From Ascaphus truei (Eukaryota > Chordata > Amphibia > Anura > Ascaphidae), in the NCBI GenBank assembly GCA_036426205.1, contig CM071568.1:118824696-118888695 (forward strand): a stretch of DNA of 64,000 bases, in the 5' to 3' direction. The stretch's first letter is position 1. Every line of letters starts with the position of its first letter. The notes beneath the pieces were generated by a model that did not search any database, had not been told where the DNA came from, and worked only from the letters and a program-made list of their open reading frames with translations. A program made the translations under genes and the position numbers. Positions 16,466-55,368 of the stretch are shown one piece after another.

Positions 16466-17401
16466 TGTCACGGTTGGGCTCGCCACAAACCTGGGTCGGA
16501 CCGCGTGGCTGAGGTGGGGTTGTAAAAGCACCAACCTTAGACCGCACAGGCTGATCCGGATTGCGCAGTTCGTAGTCGTACGTAGCAGGGTCGGGACTGG
16601 AGAAGGTAGCATCATCAGTGGACAAGCCATGGTCAGGACTGGAGAGATCAGGGTAAACGTTATTCAAGCAGGAGTTCGGTAACAGGTAGTCAGGAGTTCC
16701 CCGCTTCAGCTTAGGAGCGTGGGAGCGGGTTCTGTGCGTGCGGTGACCATGGCCCATGGTACTGCTCTCAGGAAGGGATAGGCAGACCGGAGTGGGCACA
16801 CCGCCAGGCAACACTGGTAAACCAGTGCTTCAGCGCAAGAGTCCAGAGCAGGCCTGTGCAAGGAGAGAGAGAGCTACAGACCTCTGGACTCATAGACCGG
16901 CCTCTACTAGGGAAGGACAGCCGGCCTCAGGAAACTGGAAGCTGAAGTACACACTGGAGAACCCTCCGCTTCAGCACAGGAAACAGGAACAGTCCGCTGC
17001 GTGACACTAGCAGCCGGCCTCAGGAAATAGGGAGCTGAAGTCAACAAGGAGAGTACTCCGCTTCAGCACAGGAGACAGGAACAGACCTCTGCGTGAACTA
17101 AGGAATAGAACTTTGAGAGATTAGTACACAACAGAGCCAAGCCTTAGGGCTTGTGGCAGAACACTGGGTGACATCCAGGAAGGACAATGCTCGGCAGAGG
17201 AGGATTGTGGGGATGCAGTACTTAAAGGCCTGCGGGCCAATCCCCGGAGGAGGGTGTGAAGGCACTGCTCCAATGAGTGTGTACAAGGCTAGATTGCAGT
17301 GATAGCTTGCACAGCTGCAGTAGATACCAGAGGGAGTGTTCCAGGACTGCACAGGTCTGTGAGGCAAGGTAAGCAGTAAACTGAGGTGTGGATTCCTTAC
17401 A
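16466..17401 (-). repeat. 3' LTR of the nested element (936 bp)
   Basis: Runs from TGTCACGG to CCTTACA on the plus strand. It is about 92 bp shorter than the 5' LTR because it has one fewer copy of an internal tandem unit (CACTAGCAGCCGGCCTCAGG...CTGAAGTCAACAAGGAG). Its primer-match site reads AATGCTCGGC, against TATGCTCGGC in the 5' LTR. Confidence 0.95.
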
Positions 17402-20572: not shown

Positions 20573-21600
20573 TGTCACGGTTGTGCTCGCCACAAACCTG
20601 GGTCGGACCGCGTGGCTGAGGTGGGGTTGTAAAAGCACCGACCTTAGACCGCGCAGGCTGATCCGGATTGCGCAGTTCGTAGTCGTACTTAGCAGGGTCG
20701 TGACTGGAGAAGGTAGCATCATCAGTGGACAAGCCATGGTAAGGACTGGAGAGATCAGGGTAAACGTTATTCAAGCAGGAGTTTGGCAACAGGTAGTCAG
20801 GAGTTCCCCGCTTCAGCTTAGGAGTGTGGGAGCGGGTTCTGCGCGTGCGGCGACCATGGCCCATGGTACTGCTCTCAGGAAGGGATAGGCAGACCAGAGT
20901 GGACACACCGCCAGGCAACACTGGTAAACCAGTGCTTCAGCGCAAGAGTCCAGAGCGGGCCTGTGCAAGGAGAAAGAGAGCTACAGACCTCTGGACTCGT
21001 AGACCGGCCTCTACTAGGGAAGGACAGCCGGCCTCAGGAAACTGGAAGCTGAAGTACGCACTGGAGAACCCTCCGCTTCAGCACAGGAAACAGGAACCGA
21101 CTGCTGCGTGACACTAGCAGCCGGCCTCAGGAAACAGGGAGCTGAAGTCAACAAGGAGAGTACTCTGCTTCAGCACAGGAAACAGGAACAGACCGCTGTG
21201 TGACACTAGCAGCCGGCCTCAGGAAACAGGGAGCTGAAGTCAACAAGGAGAGTACTCCACTTCAGCACAGGAGACAGGAACAGACCTCTGCGTGAACTAA
21301 GGAATAGAACTTTGAGAGATTAGTACACAACAGAGCCAAGCCTTAGGGCTTGTGGCAGAACACTTGGTGACATCCAGGAAGGACTATGCTCGGCAGAGGA
21401 GGATTGTGGGGATGCAGTACTTAAAGGCCAGCGGGCCAATCCCCGGAGGAGGGTGTGAAGGCACTGCTCCAATGAGTTAGTACAAGGCTAGGTTGCAGTG
21501 ATAGCTTGCACAGCTGCAGTAGATACCAGAGGGAGTGTTCCAGGACTGCACAGGTCTGTGAGGCAAGGTAAGCAGTAAACTGAGGTGTGGATTCCTTACA
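20573..21600 (-). repeat. 5' LTR of the nested element (1028 bp)
   Basis: Starts TGTCACGG and ends CCTTACA on the plus strand. It contains about three copies of a ~92-bp tandem unit (20940-21300), one more than the 3' LTR. Confidence 0.95.
21385..21425 (-). promoter_or_regulatory. LTR promoter: TATA-like box and predicted start
   Basis: Minus-strand TTTAAG (21420-21425) lies 31 bases before GCCGAGCATA (21385-21394), the sequence complementary to the primer site. The same spacing recurs in four other LTRs of the window. Confidence 0.65.
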
Positions 21601-21605
21601 CTCTT

Positions 21606-23059
21606 GCTCCTTCTATAATCCCTATGCTCACACAGATCTTTAACTCTTCCCTCTGCTCTGGTACCTTTCCATCCCCATTCAAGCATGCAACCGTTATACC
21701 ATTACTCAAAAACAGCAAGCTCGACCCTACCTGTCCTTCTAACTATCGACCTGTCTCCCTCCTGCCTTTTGCCTCCCAACTCCTTGAACGTCTTGTATTC
21801 TCTCGATTGCTACACTTTCTCAACACCTATCTCTTCTAGACCCTCTACAATCTGGCTTCCACACTGCTCACTCTACTGAAACAGCCCTCACTAAAATAAC
21901 TGACGACCTCCATGCTGCCAAAGACAGAGGTCATTACACTCTGCTCATATTACTCGACCTCTCTGCAGCATTTGACACCGTGGACCACCCTCTTCTCATT
22001 CACATTCTCCATACTCTTGGTATTCGGAATAAAGCTCTATCCTGGATCTCCTCTTTCCTCTCCCAACGTACTTTCAGTGTCTCTTTTGCTAACACCTCCT
22101 CCTCCTCTATTGATCTTTCTGTGGGGGTACCCCAGGGCTCTGTCCTGGGACCCCTTCTCTTTTCTCTTTACACACTCTCTCTAGGTGACCTAATCACATC
22201 ATTTGGGTTTAAATATCACCTCTATGCTGACGACACACAAATTTACCTTTCAACCCCTGACCTTACACCTGCTATACAGACCAAAGTTTCTGAATGCCTC
22301 TCTGGAATATCATCATGGATGGCCATCCGCCGACTGAAACTTAACATGGCAAAAACAGAGCTCCTTATACTTCCTCCCAAACCTGGCCCTACTACCTCCT
22401 TCCACATTGCTATTGGAAATACGATCAGTCACCCAGTAGCCCAAGCACGCTGCCTAAGGGTTACACTTGATTCCTCTCTCTCATTCTCCTCTCATATTCA
22501 AAACGTTTCTAAAACTTGTCGCTTTTTCCTCCGCAATATCGCAAAGATACGCCCTTTTCTCTGTTACTCGACTGCTAAAACTCTGACTCAGGCCCTCATT
22601 CTTTCACGTCTCGATTACTGCAACCTCCTGCTGTCCGGCCTTCCTACCTCTCACGTGTCTCCCCTACAATCTATCCTAAACGCTGCTGCCAGAATCACTC
22701 TATTCTTTCCTAAATCTGTCTCCGTATCTCCCCTCCTGAAATCCCTCTCCTGGCTTCCGATCAAATCCTGTATCTCACACTCAATTCTCCTCCTCACTTT
22801 TAAAGCTTTACACTCTTCTGCCCCTCCTTACATCTCAGCCTTAATTTCTCGCTATGCACCATCCCGACTCTTGCGTTCTTCTCAAGGATGTCTTCTTTCT
22901 ACCCCCTTTGTATCTAAAGCTCTCTCCCGCCTTAAACCTTTCTCACATTCTGCCCCACACCTCTGGAATGCCCTTTCCCTCAATACCCAACTAGCACCCT
23001 CTCTATCCACCTTTAAGACCCACCTTAAGACACATCTGCTTAAAGAAGCATATGAATAG
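21606..23059 (+). pseudogene. L2 reverse transcriptase domain and C-terminus
   Basis: Continuation of the L2 ORF after the LTR insertion. It starts LAPSIIPMLTQIFNSSLCSG and SNYRPVSLLPF, then shifts frame at about 21837 (a TAG in the old frame). The rest is open in frame 2 to 23059. RT motifs are clear: [13 protein letters not shown] (catalytic Asp), [24 protein letters not shown] (catalytic Asp pair) and [11 protein letters not shown]. The C-terminal part ([27 protein letters not shown]) is typical of L2/CR1 ORF2. Known role: reverse transcription of the element's RNA at the nicked target. The 360 codons after the frameshift are uninterrupted, which suggests a fairly young copy. Confidence 0.92.
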
Positions 23060-27404: not shown

Positions 27405-27863
27405 CCTGTCTAAGACATGTGAATGTGCTCACAAGTGATATTCTTTATTGGCTATATGCTAACGGTGAAGGTTTTTTGTCGCCTTTTTCACCCACCATAA
27501 CTTAAAATGTATATGTAAACCTACCCAGCCTAGAAATATTTCAAGGCAAGTATAGACCAACCTCACACTGATGATACCCATCAAGGTTGAAACATGTCTG
27601 TGAGTGATTTGTACTTGCTTTTCTAGTCCCATGCAGTTTTTAAAAGCTGTGTGAACGGCAATGCATCAGCTTAAATGGGCTCCATGTGAATGGATATTCC
27701 AGGCAAAAGGTGACACATTGTGTGCTCATTTGCATGTCATTTCTCAGAATCCCTTGCTGCAGTGGGAGCACTGTATGCTTGGGGATAATGGTTGAAAGGC
27801 AGGGTTGCAGACCTGTCTAAGACATGTGAATGTGCTCATAAGTGATATTCTTTATTGGCTATA
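27405..27863 (+). repeat. Hammerhead repeat unit with 52-bp terminal direct repeats
   Basis: The block CCTGTCTAAGACATG...TTTATTGGCTATA at 27405-27456 recurs at 27812-27863 with one clear mismatch, a spacing of 407 bp. The unit between is a diverged version of the ~400-bp monomer at 54.26-55.22 kb: same order of CACCATAACTTAA, hammerhead core, GTGTGCTCATTTGCATGTCATTT, CAGAATCCCTTGCTGCAGTG and GGTTGCAGACC. It is therefore about 1.1 units long, the shape expected if a tandem or circular template was copied into the genome. Confidence 0.85.
27546..27618 (+). ncRNA. Hammerhead ribozyme motif, type I, near-intact
   Basis: Core CTGATGA at 27568-27574 and GAAA at 27589-27592, cleavage triplet GTC ending at 27598. 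Stem I inner CTCACA (27562-27567) pairs with TGTGAG (27599-27604); outer GCAAGTA (27546-27552) pairs with TACTTGC (27612-27618). Stem II is ACC/GGT with loop CATCAA, but the position next to the core is T opposite T instead of G-C, a weak point. Stem III is formed by self-complementary ACATGT. Confidence 0.75.
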
Positions 27864-28690
27864 ACATAGGGCAACACGCAAAAAACATGGCGAGTTCAAA
27901 CCACTGCCAAAAGCACTTTTTTGCCACTTAGTGCATGACCCCCCTGGTCTCTTAAAACATGTATTGCCGGGATCATATGATTGAGCAAAGCAAGGAGGTA
28001 AAATAAATTGTAATTTATTCCACGAAAAGACATACACACAATGTTCCACAATTACAGTCAATATACACTAACTGGGACGGGGGCAAACAAAATAATTTGC
28101 TTCCAAAATGAAATGTTGAAAAATAAAGTCTTTAGGAGCAATCTCCCAGCAGTTTCAGTTACTCGCGAAATGGCTTGTAACTGTCCTCGGTCAGCGGTGC
28201 CAGCTGCAACCGATGTGTACTCCGACGGAGCTGCTTCCTTCGTTCTGCCAATACGATAATGGCACTTGGAATTTTATGAAATCTCTGATGAATCTGATTT
28301 CCCAATGGCCTGCAGGAATTCTTATTGGGTTCAGAACTCTATACCTAACAAGTGCAGCCAGTCTCTCTGTGGGAATAACTTTTCCCAACTATCCAGGAGT
28401 TGCCAATACTTCACAAACCTGGCAGAGAGGGCTTCTCATTCTGCTAAGGGCATGCGCGAACGTAGCACATTTGATTCATAGCATATGAGACCCAGCCCCT
28501 CTATATGGTGACAGTAAGTCTGGGCTGGCCACCATTTGCCAAACTGCCCTGACTATACACTAGAATGGGGGTTCTTGGGGAACCCCTCCCCACCTAACAC
28601 CTTAGGGACACTGAACCCTTTCAACTCCGGACTTTTACAGACTTTGTGGCATCAAGCCAGCAGGATGCCTTAAAAGTCCGGTACTGCACA
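27864..28690. other. No recognisable gene
   Basis: Overlapping open frames of 65-91 codons occur on both strands at 28.0-28.5 kb, without recognisable motifs. I see no splice-supported exon or known repeat. Confidence 0.5.
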
Positions 28691-43584: not shown

Positions 43585-45060
43585 CAACAGGCCGGCAGGT
43601 GTCCCTGACTGACCCCATGGGGGTCCCCAGGTGATCCCTGCGGGAGTCCGGGGGTCCCCGCAGGAGTCTGGGGATCCACATGGGTGTCCGGGGGTCCCCG
43701 CGGACCTGCTGTACCAATGGTGTGCCCCAAAAAAATAAACAATAATTGTAAAAAAATACACCCTTCTCCCTCCTCCCGCCCTCCACTTATGGATAATAAT
43801 GCATTTGCCCATTTCAAATACAATAATCACAATAAAAAAAAAAATACATCTTGCAATCACCCTTGCCCGGCTGCCACAATGAAGGCCGTCCTCATCACCG
43901 TCCATGCCCTCGGGTGCTGAAAAACATACACAAGAACAACAAGAGCCAATATAATGACCCTTAAACCCTTAATCACCTTATCGGTTATTAACCGCTATAG
44001 TAATTAAGGAGTTAACCCACCCTCCCCCACCACTCACTCGGGAGGCCTAACCACCCTCCCCCACTTCCCACCCTTGAGGCCTAACCACCCTCACCCACTA
44101 CCCACCCGGGAGGCCTTACCACCCTCACCCACTACCCACCTGGGAGGCCTACTCACCCACCCTTGGGGACAATACCCCCTTCCCCCACCCCCACTACCCA
44201 CAATAAAAACACTACACAGAATAGCCCTACAATAAACATTACCATATTTAATAAAAATTAAGACATAACCCACCCACCCCCTGTGCCTCCCATAAAAACA
44301 TAATTTATTATTTTACATACAGGATTCATACCCCAGACCTACGGTAGTCCCCGGTGGTCCTGACGGGTGTCCACTGGCCCCACAGTGCACCAGAGGGGGG
44401 TTCCAACAGAGTCAGGGGGTCTCAGGGTGGCCCTCGTCAGGTGCCGTGGGCCTCCAGGTGGTCCCTGCAGGTCTCCGTGGGCCCCAAATGGGGTCCACAG
44501 GTGGGCCCTCGGGTGTCTGGGGGTCCCTGGGTCAGCCCCAAATGTGTCTGGAGGTCCTCAGGTGGTTCCCACAGGGTCTGGGGCTCTTGGGTGGTCCCTG
44601 CAGGGCCGCAGGGCCCCCACAGCTGTGGGGTCCCCGGTTCTTCCCCGCAGGTGTCCACCGTGGATGGGTCTACAGGTGGTACCCGTGGGCATCTGTTGGT
44701 CCCCGCAGACCTAAGGAAGCAACCCTGTATGTAAAAAATAAACAGTCGTATACATTTAAATAAATCAAACCCCCACCCCAACCCCCACCAAACACATACA
44801 GTACAGTAATGGGCAAAATAACTATTATCCACATATGGATAATAGATTATTTGTCTATTATTAAACACATTAAACAGCATAAATAAATGTTAAAAAAAAT
44901 ACAGTTCTACTTACCAGAGCAATATGAAGGCCATCCGACAGCCACCAATGTCCCTGTCCTCCTCCGTTGCCAGAAAAATACATTGCAAATACATTCTAAT
45001 GTCATTTAACCCCTTAATCACTTTAGCAGTTAATAACCTGCAAAAGTAATTAAGGGGTTA
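43585..45060. repeat. G/C-rich minisatellites within the GGGCAAA repeat family
   Basis: Three parts. About 43585-43725: degenerate GGGGGTCCCCGCAGGAGTC units. About 44017-44165: roughly four 34-37 bp units of CCTAACCACCCTCACCCACTACC type with GGGAGG. About 44335-44712: many degenerate 24-30 bp units of GGTGGTCCCTGCAGGTCTCCGTGGG type. Between them lie inverted GGGCAAA-family blocks and the hairpin TTAACCCCTTAATCAC...AATTAAGGGGTTAA. The long open frames are repeat artefacts. Confidence 0.75.
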
Positions 45061-45279
45061 ACCCGGTTTACCATATCACATTTTAAGTTATGGTGGGTGA
45101 AAAACCTCCACCCAGCCTAGAAATATTTCAAAGCAAGTATAAACCAACCTAACACTGATGATACCCATCAGGATTTAAACATGTCTGTGAGTGGTTTGTA
45201 CTTGCTTTGCTAGACCCATTCTGTGCTTAAAATCTGTGTGAACGGTGATGCATCAGCTTAAATGGGCTCCATGTAAATG
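45061..45279 (+). repeat. Truncated hammerhead repeat unit
   Basis: Related to 27.48-27.7 kb (CCAGCCTAGAAATATTTCAA, GCAAGTATA..ACCAACCT, TCAGCTTAAATGGGCTCCATG). It ends abruptly at the (GATA)n tract. Confidence 0.85.
45133..45205 (+). ncRNA. Hammerhead ribozyme relic, core mutated
   Basis: CTGATGA is kept (45155-45161), and GCAAGTA (45133-45139) still pairs with TACTTGC (45199-45205). But the second core strand reads TAAA instead of GAAA (45176-45179), so the essential G12 is lost, and stem II is damaged. Expected to be inactive. Confidence 0.7.
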
Positions 45280-45378
<99 letters not shown>

Positions 45379-47741: not shown

Positions 47742-48384
47742 TGTCACAGATGCTCACTACAACCTGGACTAGACCACAGGGCTGAGCTGGGAAAGATATT
47801 TAACCACCGCCCTAAGCCATAGGGAAGGGTCTGGATTGCAGAGTCGTGGACATGTAGCTGGGTCGGGGTAAGATAGTGAAGAGAGTAGAGGGTACTTGCC
47901 TTGGTAGGAGAGTGTAGAATGGTCGAAGTCCGTAAGCCGTGGTCATGGAGTAGAAAGTGTAGAAATCCGTTAAACAAGCTGTGGTCTGGGTGAGCAAGAA
48001 GAGACAGGTCAGACACAGACAGGGTCACAACAGGGATACGTATACTGACAGAGACAGGTACTCAGGCTGTGAATGAGCACGGTGTATAGAAGGGTCTAAG
48101 CTCAGCAACAACCAGAAGGCAGAGTGAAGCTAAATATACCTGAGGTTTCTTTAATATGTGCACGTGTGTGCCGTGTGCGCGTCAGAGGCTGGAGTGCGAC
48201 GTGCCTAGATGCACGTGCAGATGCGACCCACTGCGTGCTCCCGGAAGGCGGGGGTGATGCGCCGGCAGAGTGAGAGGCAGCCGGGGGGCGGAGGACACGG
48301 CCGTGTCGGCCGTTGTGGCGGGATAGGGGCGCAGGAAAGCAGAAAGATGCAGTGCACGGAGGTGCCCGTAGCGCGGTCGAAACA
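47742..48384 (-). repeat. 3' LTR of the chromovirus (643 bp)
   Basis: Starts TGTCACAGATGC and ends CGGTCGAAACA on the plus strand. It lacks about 120-150 bp present in the 5' LTR (about 53040-53160), which accounts for most of the length difference. Its primer-match site reads TAAGCTCAGC. Confidence 0.9.
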
Positions 48385-48401
48385 GTACCCCCCTCTTGAG
48401 G
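48385..48401 (-). other. Polypurine tract
   Basis: Minus sense CAAGAGGGGGGTAC, immediately before the 3' LTR; the expected plus-strand primer. Confidence 0.8.
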
Positions 48402-48465
48402 GGAGGACACCGGACGACCCAGGAGTAGCTTAGCGGGATATCTGTGGTTGAACTCTTGAGTTAAT

Positions 48466-48702
48466 TTAGGTGTGTACCTGGTCTTGTGATATCCATTCCC
48501 GTTCTTCTGGGCCAAAGTCCTTCCAGTGTACTAGGTATTGTAGCTTTCCCCTAGATACCCTTGAATTGATGATGGCCTGGACCTTGAACTCTTGTTGCCC
48601 CTCCACTAGAATGGGTCGGGGTAATATGTTCCTTCTGGTAGATAAATTGTCTGGTACAAAAGGTTTCAGGAGTGAAACGTGGAAGGCAGAAGGAATTTTC
48701 AT
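48466..48702 (-). pseudogene. Chromodomain at the end of pol
   Basis: Encodes FHVSLLKPFVPDN (the usual end of the integrase region) and then ILVEGQQEFKVQAIINSRV followed by LQYLVHWKDFGPEEREW. The last block is a chromodomain with its conserved aromatic residues Y, W and W. In chromoviruses this domain is thought to guide integration by binding chromatin. The frame is open over 78 codons, but the join to the integrase upstream (48.7 kb) is not in frame with all of it. Confidence 0.85.
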
Positions 48703-49660
48703 GGTAGGGGGTAGCTTTGACCGGTAGATGACCAGGTTGATTCTCTCTTGAATGGGGAATGTTCCAATGAATCTAGGTGCCAGTTTAGATGAGGGTACCT
48801 TGAGTCATATATTACTCTTAGAGAACCAGACCTTTTGGCCAGGAATATAATTAGGGGTCTCTCGGCGGCTGCGATTAGCTTGTCTTCTATGGAGAAGAAC
48901 GGCCTGCCTAAAGTTGTTTTGAATCTTCTCCCAGGATTTTTTAGTTGAACCCTGTTCTCCACTGCAGGGACCTCAGAGTTGGGGACTGGGGATGGAAAGG
49001 TGGTGGGATGGAAACCATAATTAATGAAGAAGGGAGACTGTTGGATGGACTCGTTGCGTGATTTATTATGCACTAATTCTGCCCAAGGGAGGAGTTCTGC
49101 CCAATTGTCCTGATCGTCTGACACAAAGCAGCTGATATATTGTTTGAGTGACTGGTTGGTCCACTCGGTCTGCCCGTTGATCTGCGGGTGATACCCGGAG
49201 GAGAACTGTAGCATGATAACTAATTTCTTGCAGAAAGCTCTCCAAAATTTAGACACGAATTGTGACTCCCGATCTGACACTATGGTTTGAGGTGTCCCGT
49301 GAAGCCTGAAGACATCCTTTGTGAAGGTTTCGGATAATCTGGCGGCGTATGGTAGTCCCCGGAGGGGGATGAAGTGTGCTTGCTTCGAGAAGCGATCCAC
49401 CACTACTAAGATCGTAGCCATACCCTTGGATTTGGGTAATTCGATGATAAAGTCCATCAAGAGATAGTTCCAAGGGCGATCGGGGATGGGAAGGGGTAGT
49501 AAAAAACCTGGAGGTTTACTGCAGGGCGTTTTGTTCTGGGTGCACGTAGCACAAGAAGACACGAAGCTCCTGCCTGGCCACCAGAAGTTGTGTTCCAAGA
49601 GTTCGACAGTCCTCCTAGTACAGTACATGGATGACCTGCTGTCTTGGAGGCGTGAACCCA
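48703..49660 (-). pseudogene. Integrase
   Basis: Zinc-binding part: RRTVELLEHNFWWPG then CATCTQNKTPC (H and CxxC). Catalytic core: MDFIIELPKSKGMATILVVV with the first Asp, IVSDRESQFVSKFWRAFC with the second Asp, and SGYHPQINGQTEWTNQSL with Gln-Thr-Glu supplying the Glu of the D,D-35-E triad. Known role: joins the element's DNA ends to the target. A frameshift lies near 49.61-49.64 kb, where the upstream frame (VMEWVHASKTAGHPC) ends, and another near 48.96 kb where the C-terminal part leaves the frame. Confidence 0.92.
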
Positions 49661-50330
49661 CTCCATGACTTGTCTGTGAAGACTCGGAGGAGTGAACAGC
49701 CGTCCTTCTTTTACCTGGAGGCCCTCGGGTATGTAATTCCGTCCCCTTGTGATCTCTGGAAGAGCGCTTAAGACGTTTGCGGAGAGAATGCATGCCAGAG
49801 GGAGGATAGGGTCTGGTTGGTCCACAGATTTGTCCTCTACTAAGAACTGCCGGGAGAGTGCGTCCGCCTTAATGTTCTTGGAGCCGGGGATGTAGGAAAT
49901 CACGAAGTTGAAGCGGGTAAAAAACAAAGCCCAACGTGCCTGGCGAGATCCTACGCAACGCGCCCCTTCAATATATAGTAAATTCTTATGGTCAGTTAAG
50001 ATGGTGATGGGGATTTCTGTGCCTTCAAGTAGGTGCCTCCATTCCTCCAAGGCCATCTTAATAGAGAGGAGATCACAATTTCCCATGTCGTAATTTCTTT
50101 CTGCGGCTGAAATTGTATTTTTAAAATGCGGACGGGTGGAGTCTCGTCTGGGGCTCCCTTCTCTGGGAGAGTAACGCTCCCGCTCTGACATCAGAGGCAT
50201 CTACTTCGAGGGTGAAGGGCAGTGCTGGGTTCGGGTGTACCAACATGGGTGCTGAGATGAAGGCTTTCTTTAGTTTCTCAAAGACTTCAATGGCTTCGAT
50301 AGACCAGTGAGCCGATCGGCTCCCTTATGG
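49661..50330 (-). pseudogene. RNase H domain and linker to integrase
   Basis: The minus strand reads NTISAAERNYDMGNCDLLSI then ALEEWRHLLEGTEIPITIL, TDHKNLLYIEGARCVGSRQA and SYIPGSKNIKADALSR. These are standard RNase H blocks of Ty3/gypsy (YDxGxxELL, TDHKNL, the final ADALSR). Known role: removes the RNA strand after reverse transcription. The N-terminal catalytic Asp block lies in a disturbed stretch near 50.2-50.3 kb, with a frame change to the RT ORF. Confidence 0.88.
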
Positions 50331-51281
50331 GTTAATGACTACCGCGGAAAAACCCTTTTTGAACCTCCGGTAGTAGTTTGAGAAACCAAAAAATCTCTGA
50401 ACTGCTTTGAGTGAAAGTGGTTGTGGCCATTCTATGATCACCTTGACCTTGTCCAGATCCATAGTCAGTCCAATACTGGATATGATGTATCCCAGGAACG
50501 TGGTAGAGGACGGACTGAAACTGGCAAAGAGATTATTTGTGCGTAATCTTTGGAGGATATGCTTCACATGCTCCGAGTGTTCAGCAGTGTTCTTAGAAAA
50601 AATCAGGATGTCGTCCAAATATACAACAACGTACTGATCGAATAGATCCCTGAACATCTCGTTCACGAATTCTTGGAACACTGCAGGTGCGTTGCAAAGA
50701 CCGAAGGGCATAACCAAATATTCATAGTGTCCGTCGCAAGTGTTAAACACCGTCTTCTACTCATCTCCCTGACGGATCTTTACCAGGTTGTATGCTCCCC
50801 TCAGGTCCAGCTTAGTGAAGATAGTAGCTCCTTGGAGTCTGTCAAATTATTCTGAAATCAAGGGGAGAGGGTAGCGGTTCTTGACCGTTATCTTGTTTAG
50901 CCCACGATAGTCTATACAGGGTCTGAGTGACCCATCCTTTTTTTTGACAAAAAAGAATCCCGCACTGGTGGGAGAGGAGGATTTCTGGATGAAGCCCCCG
51001 AGAAGGTTTTCTTGTATGTATTGCCTCATGGCTTGAGTCTCCGGTGCAGACAGAGGGTAAGAGCAACCACGGCGAATAGTGGCACAGTGCAAGTGGTCTA
51101 TGGGACAATCAAAGGGACGGTGGGGCAGAAGTTCTTCAGTTTGTCCTTTGTCAAAGATGTCCCGGAATTTGTAGTACATCTTTAGTAGAGAATCTCCAGG
51201 CTCCGGCAGTACTAGTCTGGTGAGGGTTTTGGAGGTGTCCAGACATCTCTCTTGACACAAGGTACTCCAGCAGATAGGCAA
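50325..51281 (-). pseudogene. Reverse transcriptase
   Basis: From 51281 leftwards: the linker ([34 protein letters not shown]), then [20 protein letters not shown] and [12 protein letters not shown] gap with stops at about 50750-50845 covers RT motif A. Then EYLVMPFGLCNAPAVFQEFV and VVVYLDDILIFS with the YLDD catalytic Asp pair, and FLGYIISSIGL. Continues to YYRRFKKGFS. One premature stop and one frame change separate the two halves, so the enzyme is dead. Confidence 0.93.
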
Positions 51282-51299
51282 AGTACCAGTCCAATTGAC

Positions 51300-51563
51300 T
51301 TATGGGTTGTGTTGCTTGAGCCACGGCAGTCCCAGAACGATATCTACCAAAGGTGTGTGAATAACATTGAGTTGTATAGTCTCGGAGTGACCACCGTGGG
51401 GCTGTAGAGAAAAAGGAATGGTTTGGAAAATAATAAAAGAGGGTTGGAGTGGGCAGCCGTCGATAGCCTCGAGGCCAACTGAGTGATCCTTAGGAGTTAA
51501 AGGTATCTTGTTCCTCTCCGCAAATTCCTGGTCAATAAAGTTGCCCCCTGACCCAGAGTCCAT
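51300..51563 (-). pseudogene. Aspartic protease
   Basis: MDSGSGGNFIDQEFAERNKI carries the DSG catalytic triplet, and VDIVLGLPWLKQHNP is the conserved ILGLPWL block of Ty3/gypsy proteases. It would cut the Gag-Pol polyprotein. The frame ends at a stop at 51300-51302, just before the RT linker. The homologous protease at 0.3-1.1 kb is split by a MITE. Confidence 0.9.
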
Positions 51564-52596
51564 GAAGACATGTGTGGTTGTTTTAAAGTTGTCCCCATAC
51601 TAGATGACAGGGATGTAGATCCTAGTTGGAGATTTGGGAGGAAGATGTGATGTGGTTCCCAGTGTAGCTCCCCCGACATGCACTGGGCGTTGGAATTTCC
51701 CAGCTTTATAGGGCAAGTGGCAAGTAGGTGCCCATTGTTACCACAATACATGCAGAGTCCCGAACGTCGTCTTCGCTGTCTCTTTTCAGTGGCCAGATGG
51801 GTTAGTCCGAGTTTCATTGGTTCCTCAACTGCAATGGCCGGAGAATTTCCGCTAGAGATAGGTGAGGAAAGAAATGTAGATGGGGTTCAAAAACGCTTAC
51901 CTCTCTCCATCCTTCTCTCTTGGAGACGCTGGTCCATCCGGATACACAGGACCACAATGCTTCTAATCCCGAAAGACGTTCCAGTGATGCTAGTTCGTCC
52001 TTGAGGTTCTTGGAAATCCCTTGCCAGAATTCCACCGACAATGCTTCGGCGTTCCGTCCGGTCTCAGTGGCAATGGTGCGGAACTCAAGGGCGTATCGAG
52101 CCACCGTGTGATTTCCCTAGGATATGTTCTGCAGGGTAGAGAATGTTGTTACCTTCCTTCCTGGTGACCCTTCAGAATTCCACGGTGAATCGGTCAACAT
52201 CGGATGTGAGATGGGGGACTTTGCTCCCAAATCGGAGAGGCCCAAGCCAGCGGGTCGTCCATCAGGAAAGAGATTATGTACGCTACCTTAAAACAAGGAG
52301 AAGGAAAATTTGCGTGCCGTAATTCGAACTGTATGGAGCACTGATTAAGGAAACCCCGGAATCCCAGAGGGTTGCCCCCATAGCGCTTGGGGGTCGGAAG
52401 ACGTGGAAAGGAAGTTGAGTTGGGGGGAGCAAGGGTTGGCTGGTTGGAGGGCAGTAACCCAGATGTCTAGGTCCCCTAGAGAATGTTGGAACCCCTCCAT
52501 GTGTTGATTATTCTGGTACAGGCACCACTCCTGTTTAAAAATAGCTTAGATCTTTTGCAATTATTGAACTGCCTCAGCGGGGTCCAGGTGTGTTGG
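51564..52596 (-). pseudogene. Gag with CCHC zinc knuckle
   Basis: Begins one base after the 5' LTR with codons ATT-CTC-AGC-CCA-ACA (ILSPT), where the relatives at 20.57 and 61.63 kb have ATG. The middle part has decayed. ARYALEFRTIATETGRNAEA and FWQGISKNLKDELASLERL (about 51980-52104) match the Ty3-type capsid and the gag at 61.0-61.4 kb. GLCMYCGNNGHLLATC (about 51720-51770) is a CCHC knuckle for RNA binding. The apparent loss of the start codon, plus stops, makes it non-functional. Confidence 0.82.
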
Positions 52597-52606
52597 GCTG
52601 AGAATA
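52597..52606 (-). other. Self-complementary primer-binding site
   Basis: Minus sense TATTCTCAGC, one base after the 5' LTR. It matches TATGCTCAGC inside the 5' LTR (53004-53013) at nine of ten bases, so the RNA start could anneal here. Confidence 0.65.
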
Positions 52607-52607
52607 A

Positions 52608-53399
52608 TGTCATGGATGCTCACTACAACCTGGACTGGACCGCGGGGCTGAGGTGGGGAAGATGTATAACCACTGCCCTAAGTCACAGGGAAGGGTCCAG
52701 ATTGCAGAGTCATGGACGTGTAGCCGGGTTGGGGTGAGAGAGTGGAGGGTACTTGCCTATGGTCCGGGGTTGGAGAGTGTAGCATGGTTGAGGTCCAAAA
52801 GCCGTGGTCATGGAGTAGAGAGTGTAGAATGGTCAAGGTCTGTAAGCTGTGCTCGTGGAGAAGAAAGTGTAGAAGACCATTAAACAAGCTGTGTTCCAGG
52901 GGAGCAAGAAGAGACAGGTCAGGCACAGCAGGGTCACAACAGGGATATATATACTGACAGACAGGTACTCAGGCTGTGAATGAACAAGGTGCATAGAAGG
53001 GTCTATGCTCAGCAACAACCAGAAGGCAGAGTGAACCTAAATATAGGAGAGAACAAATGAGGGGAAGGAGAGGAGGTGTGGTCAGATGTATGAGGAATGG
53101 TGATAGACTGAGGCTGGATGTAACTCATGTGTAGCCCACCTGAGGTTAGTGTAGGCATTCGTTTCTTTAATATGTGAACGCGCGTGCCGCGTGCACGTCA
53201 GAGGATGGCGTGCGACGTGCCGAGATGCGCGCGCAGATGGGACCAACTGCGCGCTTCCGGAAGGTGGAGCGATGAGCCGGCAGAGCGTGAGGTAGCCAGG
53301 GGGCAGAGGATACGCCCGCGTTGGCCTTTGCGGCGGGACAGGGGCAAAGGTAAGCGAGAAGATGCGGTGCACGGAGGTGCCCGTAGCGCGGTCGTGACA
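52608..53399 (-). repeat. 5' LTR of the chromovirus (792 bp)
   Basis: Starts TGTCATGGATGC and ends GGTCGTGACA on the plus strand; collinear with 47742-48384 apart from the extra block near 53040-53160. Confidence 0.9.
53004..53045 (-). promoter_or_regulatory. LTR promoter: TATA box and predicted start
   Basis: Minus-strand TATATTTA (53038-53045) is 32 bases before GCTGAGCATA (53004-53013), the primer-complementary sequence. Confidence 0.65.
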
Positions 53400-54248: not shown

Positions 54249-54452
54249 TATATTATATATATGCAGCAGTGAAAGTGATGTGTGCTGGGTGATAATTGTG
54301 AAAGGTGGGGTTGCAGACCCGCCTAAGACATGCAAATGAGCATACAGTTGTAATTACATTTGCATATTTGCTTTTCTGTGGAGGGTTTCTGTCACTTTTT
54401 TTACTCACCATAACTTAACTCAGTATGGTAAACCCCATCCTTTAGCTTCTCT

Positions 54453-54534
54453 GCATACCCAGTTCACCAACCCCACACTGATGAGACCCATTAAGGTCGA
54501 AACAGCTGTCTGTGGGTGGGTTTTCTGGGTATGC
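54453..54534 (+). ncRNA. Hammerhead ribozyme, type I, all core bases intact
   Basis: Core CTGATGA 54478-54484 and GAAA 54499-54502; cleavage predicted after C54510 of GTC. Stem II GACC/GGTC (54485-54488 with 54495-54498), loop CATTAA. Stem III ACA/TGT with a two-base loop, inside self-complementary ACAGCTGT (54502-54509). Stem I inner CCCACA (54472-54477) with TGTGGG (54511-54516), then an internal loop, then ten perfect pairs GCATACCCAG (54453-54462) with CTGGGTATGC (54525-54534). The internal loop in stem I opposite loop II is where natural hammerheads make their stabilising contact. The very short stem III suggests cleavage as a dimer in tandem transcripts. Confidence 0.88.
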
Positions 54535-54851
54535 ACCTTAACCCTGGCTGTGCTCAAAGCTGTGACCATGCAGCAAGCTTAAGCCTATAGGGAACCATGT
54601 TAAAAATGGTTTTTGAAGCAAAAAGTGGCACTGTGTGCTCAATTGCATGTCATTTCCCAGAATCCCTTGCTGCAGTGGAAGTGCTGGGTGATAATGGTGA
54701 AAGGTGGGGTTGCAGACCTGCCTAAGACATGCAGATGAGCATACAGTTGTATTTACATTTGCATATTTGCTTTGCTGTGGAGGGTTTTTGTCACTTTTTT
54801 AACTCACCATAACTTAACTCAGTATGGTAAACCCCATCCTTTAGCTTCTCT

Positions 54852-54932
54852 GCATACCCAGTTCACCAACCCCACACTGATGAGACCCATTAAGGTCCAA
54901 ACAGCTGTCTGTGGTGGGTTTTCTGGGTATGC
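54852..54932 (+). ncRNA. Hammerhead ribozyme copy with G12 mutated
   Basis: Same fold one monomer downstream: CTGATGA 54877-54883, stem II GACC/GGTC, outer stem I GCATACCCAG (54852-54861) with CTGGGTATGC (54923-54932). But the second core strand is CAAA (54898-54901) instead of GAAA, and one G is missing from the 3' side of inner stem I. The G12 change removes the base thought to act as general base, so this copy should not cleave. Confidence 0.85.
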
Positions 54933-55223
54933 ACCTTAACCCTGGCTGTGCTCAAAGCTTTGACCATGCAGCAAGCTTAAGCCTATAGGGAACCATGTTA
55001 AAAATGGGTTTTGAAACAAAAAGTGGCACTGTGTGCTCATTTGTATGTCATTTCCCAGAATCCCTTGTTGCAGTGGAAGTGCTGTGTGCTGGGTGATAAT
55101 GGTGATAGGTAGGGTTGCAGCCCTGCCTAAGACATGCAGATGAGCATACAGTTGTATTTGCATATTTGCTTTGCTGTGGAGGGTTTTTGTCACTTTTTTT
55201 ACTCACCATAACTTAACTCAGTA

Positions 55224-55368
55224 TATACACATGTATATGTGTATATGTGTATATGTGTATATGTGTATATGTGTATATGTGTATATGTGTATATGTGTTA
55301 TGTGTATATGTGTATATGTGTATATGTGTATATGTGTATATGTGTATATGTGTATATGTGTATATGTA
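55224..55368. repeat. (TATGTG)n microsatellite
   Basis: About 24 units of a hexanucleotide with one irregular unit near 55298. The open frame through it is an artefact. Confidence 0.95.

Follow-up and report, generated by a model that had tools for sequence, protein, structure and literature searches.

We describe here a non-coding tandem repeat from the frog Ascaphus truei that carries a hammerhead ribozyme together with boxes of the kind found in promoters of small nuclear RNA (snRNA) genes. The repeat lies in a stretch of 64,000 nucleotides (contig CM071568.1 of GenBank assembly GCA_036426205.1, positions 118,824,696 to 118,888,695 of the forward strand), which was analyzed as a whole and is called the window below; all coordinates refer to it. 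Judged from its sequence, the ribozyme is a genuine hammerhead, and the tandem repeat that holds it is equally genuine and of the satellite 2 and retrozyme kind. Ribozyme and repeat belong to a known kind, and the snRNA-type promoter arrangement is the more interesting part. Hammerheads are abundant in animal repeats. We consider it quite probable that the Ascaphus repeat, which codes for no protein and bears a hammerhead in each full tandem unit, belongs with newt satellite 2 and the metazoan retrozymes, has an snRNA-type promoter and spreads by way of RNA circles.

Results

The array on which this view is based has a unit of 399 bp (Table 1), and its first unit (A1) holds an extended type I hammerhead; A2 stands for unit 2 of the same array, B1 and B2 for the diverged copies near 27 kb and 45 kb. 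Reading the core of A1 base by base, we found all core bases in place, with CUGAUGA at 54478-54484 and GAA at 54499-54501, as a first, sequence-only reading of the window had claimed. That reading also had three stems forming, which holds for stem I (CCCACA/UGUGGG, 54472-54477/54511-54516) and for stem II (GACC/GGUC closing a 6-nt loop, 54485-54498). Stem III is the part that did not stand as claimed: its strand, ACAGCUGU (54502-54509), allows at most 2 bp (A-U, C-G) around AGCU, and its pair probability in the monomer ensemble is 0.0. The cleavage-site C17 is 54510. Beyond an internal loop of stem I, GCAUACCCAG and CUGGGUAUGC (54453-54462/54525-54534) form the distal helix that had been noticed before, with 10 perfect pairs, or 11 counting the next U-A.

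The type I hammerhead covariance model scores A1 at 35.3 bits against a gathering cut-off of 34, the sole match at or above gathering in an Rfam scan of the window; the E-value of 4e-5 refers to both strands of 64 kb against 4227 families. A strict hammerhead descriptor, with a working core motif and at least 5, 3 and 2 pairs in stems I, II and III, matched once in the window and in 0 of 200 dinucleotide shuffles, both strands being searched. A covariance score better than that of shuffled sequence had been proposed as a test, and the score is indeed better as measured by the Rfam E-value, the shuffles having been run with the descriptor. The 82-mer 54453-54534 folds with -37.3 kcal/mol (z -5.3). 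Chance was said to give such a core and such pairing rarely. E-value and descriptor agree with this for the core, but the distal helix is by itself less improbable than it looks, as 159 of 20000 flank shuffles, scored by arm-to-arm pairing only, gave one as long. An earlier count (helices of at least 10 pairs in 114, 93 and 62 per 1000 flank shuffles) was biased because stem I could extend into the shuffled flanks, and is superseded by the arm-to-arm pairing.

The placement of the ribozyme in a tandem repeat of about 400 bp was confirmed by Tandem Repeats Finder (TRF). Units 1 and 2 share 381 of 396 bases (96%), a likeness that suggests recent insertion or homogenisation. The intact core ascribed to the repeat is found in unit 1 and not in unit 2, where G12 is changed to C at 54898 and one G is also missing from stem I; because of the changed G12, unit 2 falls below the Rfam cut-off. 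Unit 3 ends in a (TGTATATG)n microsatellite just past its box resembling a proximal sequence element (PSE), before any ribozyme. G+C is 0.449 in A1, 0.444 in A2 and 0.415 in B1, and no stop-to-stop open reading frame of at least 110 codons overlaps the array. Metazoan retrozymes are characterized by a unit of 150-450 bp, G+C below 50%, a type I hammerhead and no coding (PMC7229834). The repeat, with its 399-bp tandem unit, type I hammerhead, G+C below 50% and no protein coding, shows these properties of the metazoan retrozymes without long terminal repeats (non-LTR retrozymes). A self-cleaving tandem repeat of the newt satellite 2 and animal retrozyme type, as first expected, is the best reading and is supported by the Rfam match, the descriptor and the 399-bp array. 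Exact-pattern scans of viral contigs and of bacterial and archaeal genome contigs returned no relatives, as expected for an animal repeat, and are uninformative on animal genomes.

Two diverged copies lie upstream in the window. B1 is identical to A1 at 253 of 393 aligned bases. It retains CUGAUGA and GAAA. Its stem II has a U.U at the base, and its stem III consists of one pair with a palindromic loop, CAUG. The damaged core of B2 is, like that of unit 2, without G12. Within each copy the arms of the stem I extension pair with each other, over 11 bp in A1, 11 in A2, 14 in B1 and 16 in B2 (G-U counted), and flank shuffles equalled the own extension of A2 145 times, of B1 20 times and of B2 0 times, each of 20000. 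A1 with A2, and B1 with B2, do not count as independent copies. Pairing of the arms across the two subfamilies is poor (4 bp between the A1 5' arm and the B1 3' arm, 7 bp between the B1 5' arm and the A1 3' arm). Compared with B1 by the alignment column of the 5' base, nine of the ten A1 distal pairs differ on both sides and one on one side, which is a reading of the alignment, as MAFFT sets the A1 and B1 3' arms two columns apart. To judge from these sequences, the B copies form an older, related subfamily in which the hammerhead persists, with other bases pairing in its stem I extension. The inverted PSE-containing piece of B2 recalls the 5' inversions of target-primed reverse transcription; its flanks resemble other repeats by eye, and we do not build on it. 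B2 runs directly into a (GATA)n microsatellite (45280-45378), and the cut-off unit 3 of the array is likewise directly followed by its (TGTATATG)n microsatellite (55232-55367); both microsatellites may be tails of the insertions, as of a retrotransposon, or may have expanded later.

Around the ribozyme the unit contains boxes that resemble the elements of snRNA promoters, where all mismatch counts for SPH/Staf and PSE refer to working consensus strings. An octamer (ATTTGCAT), which B1 has exactly and A1 and A2 have with one mismatch, is followed after 5 bases by an SPH/Staf-like box (TTCCCAGAATCCCTTGCT) that agrees with the working consensus at 17 of 18 positions in A1. The PSE-like box (TCACCATAACTTAA) stands ahead of the ribozyme in units 1 and 2 and is also present in the broken unit 3; the B1 version has 2 mismatches to the working consensus. 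Read from one unit into the next, octamer, SPH and PSE begin at 54641/54654/54804 and again at 55039/55052/55203, with octamer-to-PSE spacings of 163 and 164. At promoter spacing the three boxes occur in 2 places in the window, both on the + strand and within the array, and in 0 of 200 shuffles; with the same thresholds, none were found on the other strand or elsewhere in the window. Octamer and SPH alone occur in 3 places, all within these repeats, and 6 times in all 200 shuffles together. A window-wide pattern built from the repeat's own PSE region matches only units 1 and 2. By these working SPH and PSE strings, the array resembles an snRNA-type promoter in having an octamer plus SPH distal element with a PSE at a distance near the 155 bp of chicken 7SK.

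Conservation between A1 and B1 is highest in the 30-column windows 54646-54675 (0.97), 54467-54496 (0.90), 54689-54717 (0.87) and 54390-54419 (0.83). The octamer/SPH block (54641-54671) has 29 of 31 bases identical, compared to 173 of 305 outside the motifs (p 1.6e-5), and the ribozyme has 38 of 45 (p 2e-4). The block 54689-54717 matches no known box. A second octamer, an exact ATTTGCAT, is found at 54358, 54757 and 55156, 47 bases start to start before each PSE-like box of the array, and is absent from that place in the 27-kb copy.

In the chicken 7SK promoter the octamer is placed at -222, SPH at -210 and PSE at -67 (PMC2235858), thus with an octamer-PSE spacing of 155, and SPH lies 4 bp past the octamer, much as in chicken U4B (PMC2235858). 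Promoters of the snRNA type are bound by SNAPc, Oct-1 and ZNF143 and start transcripts some 65-67 bp from the first base of the PSE. Transposing the 7SK geometry, we predict start sites at 54472 and 54871, the first bases of stem I. No TATA-like sequence was seen by eye at the RNA polymerase III (Pol III) position of the 54262 array. Since absence of TATA at PSE promoters favours RNA polymerase II (Pol II; PMC6004067), Pol II is favoured for the array. Transcription by Pol III was ranked second; the 27-kb copy is less clear here, with an AT-rich stretch nearby. The 3' box of snRNA genes, searched with a working pattern, has no match in 54401-55230 and one loose match at 27636.

Folding bears on how the ribozyme may cleave. 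Stem II and the distal helix are well formed in the monomer ensemble (checked pairs 0.976-0.999), where stem I reaches about 0.3-0.5. The stem III strand ACAGCUGU, a palindrome of 8 nt, pairs with itself at -11.1 kcal/mol, and an RNA with two ribozymes can be drawn as a fully nested structure in which the two pair through this strand. Such a double hammerhead has -62.2 kcal/mol against -52.6 kcal/mol for two single ribozymes (9.6 better), with the linker unpaired in both; these energies compare two drawn forms and do not predict the winning fold. As a circle, the 399-mer folds with -140.4 kcal/mol (z -4.8, 60 shuffles), in line with the self-paired circles reported for retrozymes. The ribozymes of newt and axolotl are reported to be much more active in dimeric form (PMC7229834, PMC6155905). 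With a helix III of just 2 bp whose strand is palindromic over 8 nt, the ribozyme of the repeat likely acts as a dimer, by analogy with these. Given the 2-bp stem III, cleavage of the monomer after 54510 should be weak. The strand order implies that in the dimer each core would cut the partner's site, and as only the unit 1 core is intact, the main cut in the array's dimer should fall after 54909, made by the unit 1 core on the unit 2 site, rather than after 54510.

The remainder of the window contains other repeats. A probable Gypsy-type element, recognized by matches to an integrase core and a reverse transcriptase, lies in minus-strand orientation at 47742-53394 and is bounded by mutually similar stretches (47742-48379 and 52608-53394). 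The long open frame 21788-23056 has a reverse transcriptase domain (RVT_1, E 5.5e-29) and is probably part of a LINE-like element. At about 1178-2640 a stretch starting CTTACA..ATTTTGGCCAAAAATGTTAAAC recurs by eye about every 600 bases, three times, a recurrence that exceeds the range of TRF with its maximum period of 500. The separate arrays 16918-17100 and 21025-21299 have in common a 92-bp unit beginning CAGCCGGCCTCAGGAAACAGG (TRF).

Table 1. Features of the hammerhead repeat in the window; mismatches of PSE-like and SPH/Staf-like boxes are counted against working consensus strings.
Feature	Position	Strand	Remarks
Tandem array of the hammerhead repeat	54262..55224	+	TRF period 399 bp, 2.4 copies
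Extended type I hammerhead of unit 1 with distal helix	54453..54534	+	predicted cut after 54510
Hammerhead core of unit 1, Rfam RF00163 (Hammerhead_1)	54472..54516	+	35.3 bits, E 4e-5
Hammerhead of unit 2, damaged core	54852..54932	+	24.5 bits, below gathering; site C at 54909 intact
PSE-like box of unit 1	54405..54421	+	67 bp before stem I; 3 mismatches
Octamer and SPH/Staf-like box, 3' part of unit 1	54641..54671	+	octamer 54641-54648 (1 mismatch), SPH/Staf-like box 54654-54671 (1 mismatch)
PSE-like box of unit 2	54804..54820	+	163 bp after octamer start of unit 1; 3 mismatches
Octamer and SPH/Staf-like box of unit 2	55039..55069	+	octamer 1 mismatch, SPH/Staf-like box 2 mismatches
PSE-like box of incomplete unit 3	55203..55219	+	3 mismatches
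Diverged copy B1, one unit and about 50 bases	27408..27865	+	BLASTN, nhmmer with unit alignment; hammerhead-like core 27562-27604 (by eye), PSE-like box 27492, octamer 27728, SPH-like box 27741
Diverged truncated copy B2, damaged hammerhead and flanks	45047..45283	+	PSE-containing piece inverted, about 45061-45104

Discussion

How a repeat of this kind might be maintained can be outlined as follows. The boxes would form an snRNA-type, Pol II promoter, with transcription beginning close to the 5' edge of stem I. Pairs of ribozymes that share the palindromic stem III would be the main agents in cutting multimeric RNA to 399-nt monomers. These could circularize, and reverse transcription running round such a circle would give new tandem insertions, which would bring both halves of the promoter together again. 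Tentatively, and with confidence that stays clearly short of even, we go one step further and regard the repeat as a mobile element that carries an external promoter through RNA, as a split promoter that is rebuilt at each unit junction by tandem reverse transcription of the circle. The transcribed circle would take in the PSE, which lies directly ahead of the ribozyme, as well as the octamer/SPH block from the unit's 3' part. An insertion somewhat longer than one unit could bring a complete snRNA-type promoter, and the ribozyme would both cut the units and make the circle that regenerates the promoter. If true, the split snRNA-type promoter would link the old promoter work on newt satellite 2 with the newer circular-RNA model of retrozymes, and own control boxes could explain the continued copying of such repeats.

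Several observations weigh against the proposal of a hammerhead repeat with snRNA-type promoter and circle-based spread. The score of unit 1 exceeds the gathering cut-off by a margin of 1.3 bits, Rfam does not match B1 at E-values up to 5, and the gathering scan of the window leaves B2 unmatched. The hammerhead is not the optimum fold of the monomer (-27.6 kcal/mol as drawn by hand, compared to -37.3 kcal/mol), and the unconstrained optimum of the 480-nt two-unit stretch, -184.2 kcal/mol, is far under both drawn forms as the linker folds too. One of the two ribozymes in the array is intact, and unit 3 stops short of its ribozyme. An upstream octamer/SPH block is absent from unit 1 and from the 27-kb copy, so that the sole complete promoter-like set preceding a ribozyme stands ahead of the damaged unit 2. 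The SPH/Staf and PSE strings are working ones, and the PSE-like box taken with its exact bounds is weakly conserved (13 of 17 identical between A1 and B1, p 0.09). Target-site duplications are unconvincing: the search at the array gave 4 bases, matched by 1999 of 2000 shuffles, and the candidates CATAGGG near the 27-kb copy and GTAATTA near the 45-kb copy are equalled in 53 and 176 of 2000. Such duplications were rejected as proof of mobility. Kinship with newt satellite 2, finally, rests on anatomy.

The likeliest alternative, which we would put at under an even chance, is that the repeat is a fossil: its ribozymes were active once, transcription and cleavage have both ceased, and the intact core of unit 1 is a chance survivor. 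It is in line with the lost G12 of unit 2, with unit 3 being cut off in the microsatellite, with the U.U pair of the 27-kb copy and the damaged core of the 45-kb copy, and with the fact that the unit with the intact core is without an upstream octamer/SPH block. However, unit 1 keeps every core base and the 96% likeness of units 1 and 2 suggests recent insertion or homogenisation; even if the fossil view is true of this locus, it need not hold for the family. The locus has two complete junctions, the first facing unit 2 with its damaged core and the second facing the microsatellite, and it is therefore no obvious active source. The locus looks partly decayed, and the copy at 54262-55224 is probably a relatively recent, already damaged insertion.

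A second alternative accepts the hammerhead repeat as real and denies it a promoter of its own. The repeat would be transcribed by read-through, a mode that has been put forward for metazoan retrozymes, and the likeness of its boxes to PSE and SPH would be coincidental or mark something else. The weak conservation of the PSE-like box and the block 54689-54717, which is conserved as well as the boxes and corresponds to none that is known, speak for it, and a 2020 review states that metazoan retrozymes seem to lack promoters (PMC7761336). However, the ordered and spaced set of octamer, SPH and PSE is confined to the array and was not produced by the 200 shuffles, and no 30-column stretch of the unit is better conserved than the one at the octamer/SPH block. 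Newt satellite 2 is moreover cited for an snRNA promoter that drives its transcription by Pol II (PMC2220036), and a promoter is reported in the LTR of a plant retrozyme (PMC9695139). We regard a promoterless repeat as rather unlikely. That an inverted repeat merely happens to contain a hammerhead-like core is very improbable, for although the score lies near the gathering threshold and flank shuffles do produce distal helices of such length, the E-value, the empty descriptor shuffles and the motif kept with re-paired arms in two diverged copies all argue otherwise.

The proposed hammerhead repeat with an snRNA-type promoter can be placed beside several known systems. Like newt satellite 2 (Epstein and Gall, 1987, and later work), it is tandemly repeated in units of a few hundred bp and has an extended hammerhead of type I whose helix III is very short; the dimer mechanism and the snRNA-type promoter are cited for newt and predicted here. 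The newt unit differs in being about 330 bp, compared to 399 bp. With the metazoan non-LTR retrozymes, including HHR_Amex1 and HHR_Amex2 of axolotl, it has in common the unit size, the G+C content, the type I hammerhead and the lack of a 110-codon open reading frame (PMC7229834). Further likenesses are the U.U at the base of stem II in one subfamily (here B1), a palindromic loop III and a self-paired unit-length RNA, the last being predicted here; in B1, the U.U and the one-pair stem III with its palindromic tetraloop are reminiscent of the two axolotl motifs (PMC7229834). Both the promoter-like boxes and the likeness to these salamander motifs point to a vertebrate origin of the repeat. The combination is a different one, as here the G-C stem II goes with the two-pair stem III and the U.U stem II with the one-pair stem III. 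A further difference to the metazoan non-LTR retrozymes is the presence of the promoter-like set of boxes. In literature on hammerheads together with newt, satellite 2, PSE or snRNA promoters, and on anuran and caecilian hammerheads, such a promoter arrangement in a retrozyme is not described among the matches listed. The interspersed repeats of Xenopus tropicalis likewise have a hammerhead in a vertebrate repeat family; in contrast, no promoter is described for them in the excerpted text (PMC3088659). The vertebrate snRNA promoters of chicken 7SK and U4B show the same octamer, the same SPH a few bp downstream and a PSE about 155 bp from the octamer start (PMC2235858), whereas in the Ascaphus repeat a unit junction separates the distal block from the proximal box that follows, with no TATA-like box seen by eye in the 54262 array. 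As far as its sequence allows us to judge, the repeat favours the snRNA promoter view cited for newt over the promoterless view, and adds to it an arrangement that is complete only across the junction of two units.
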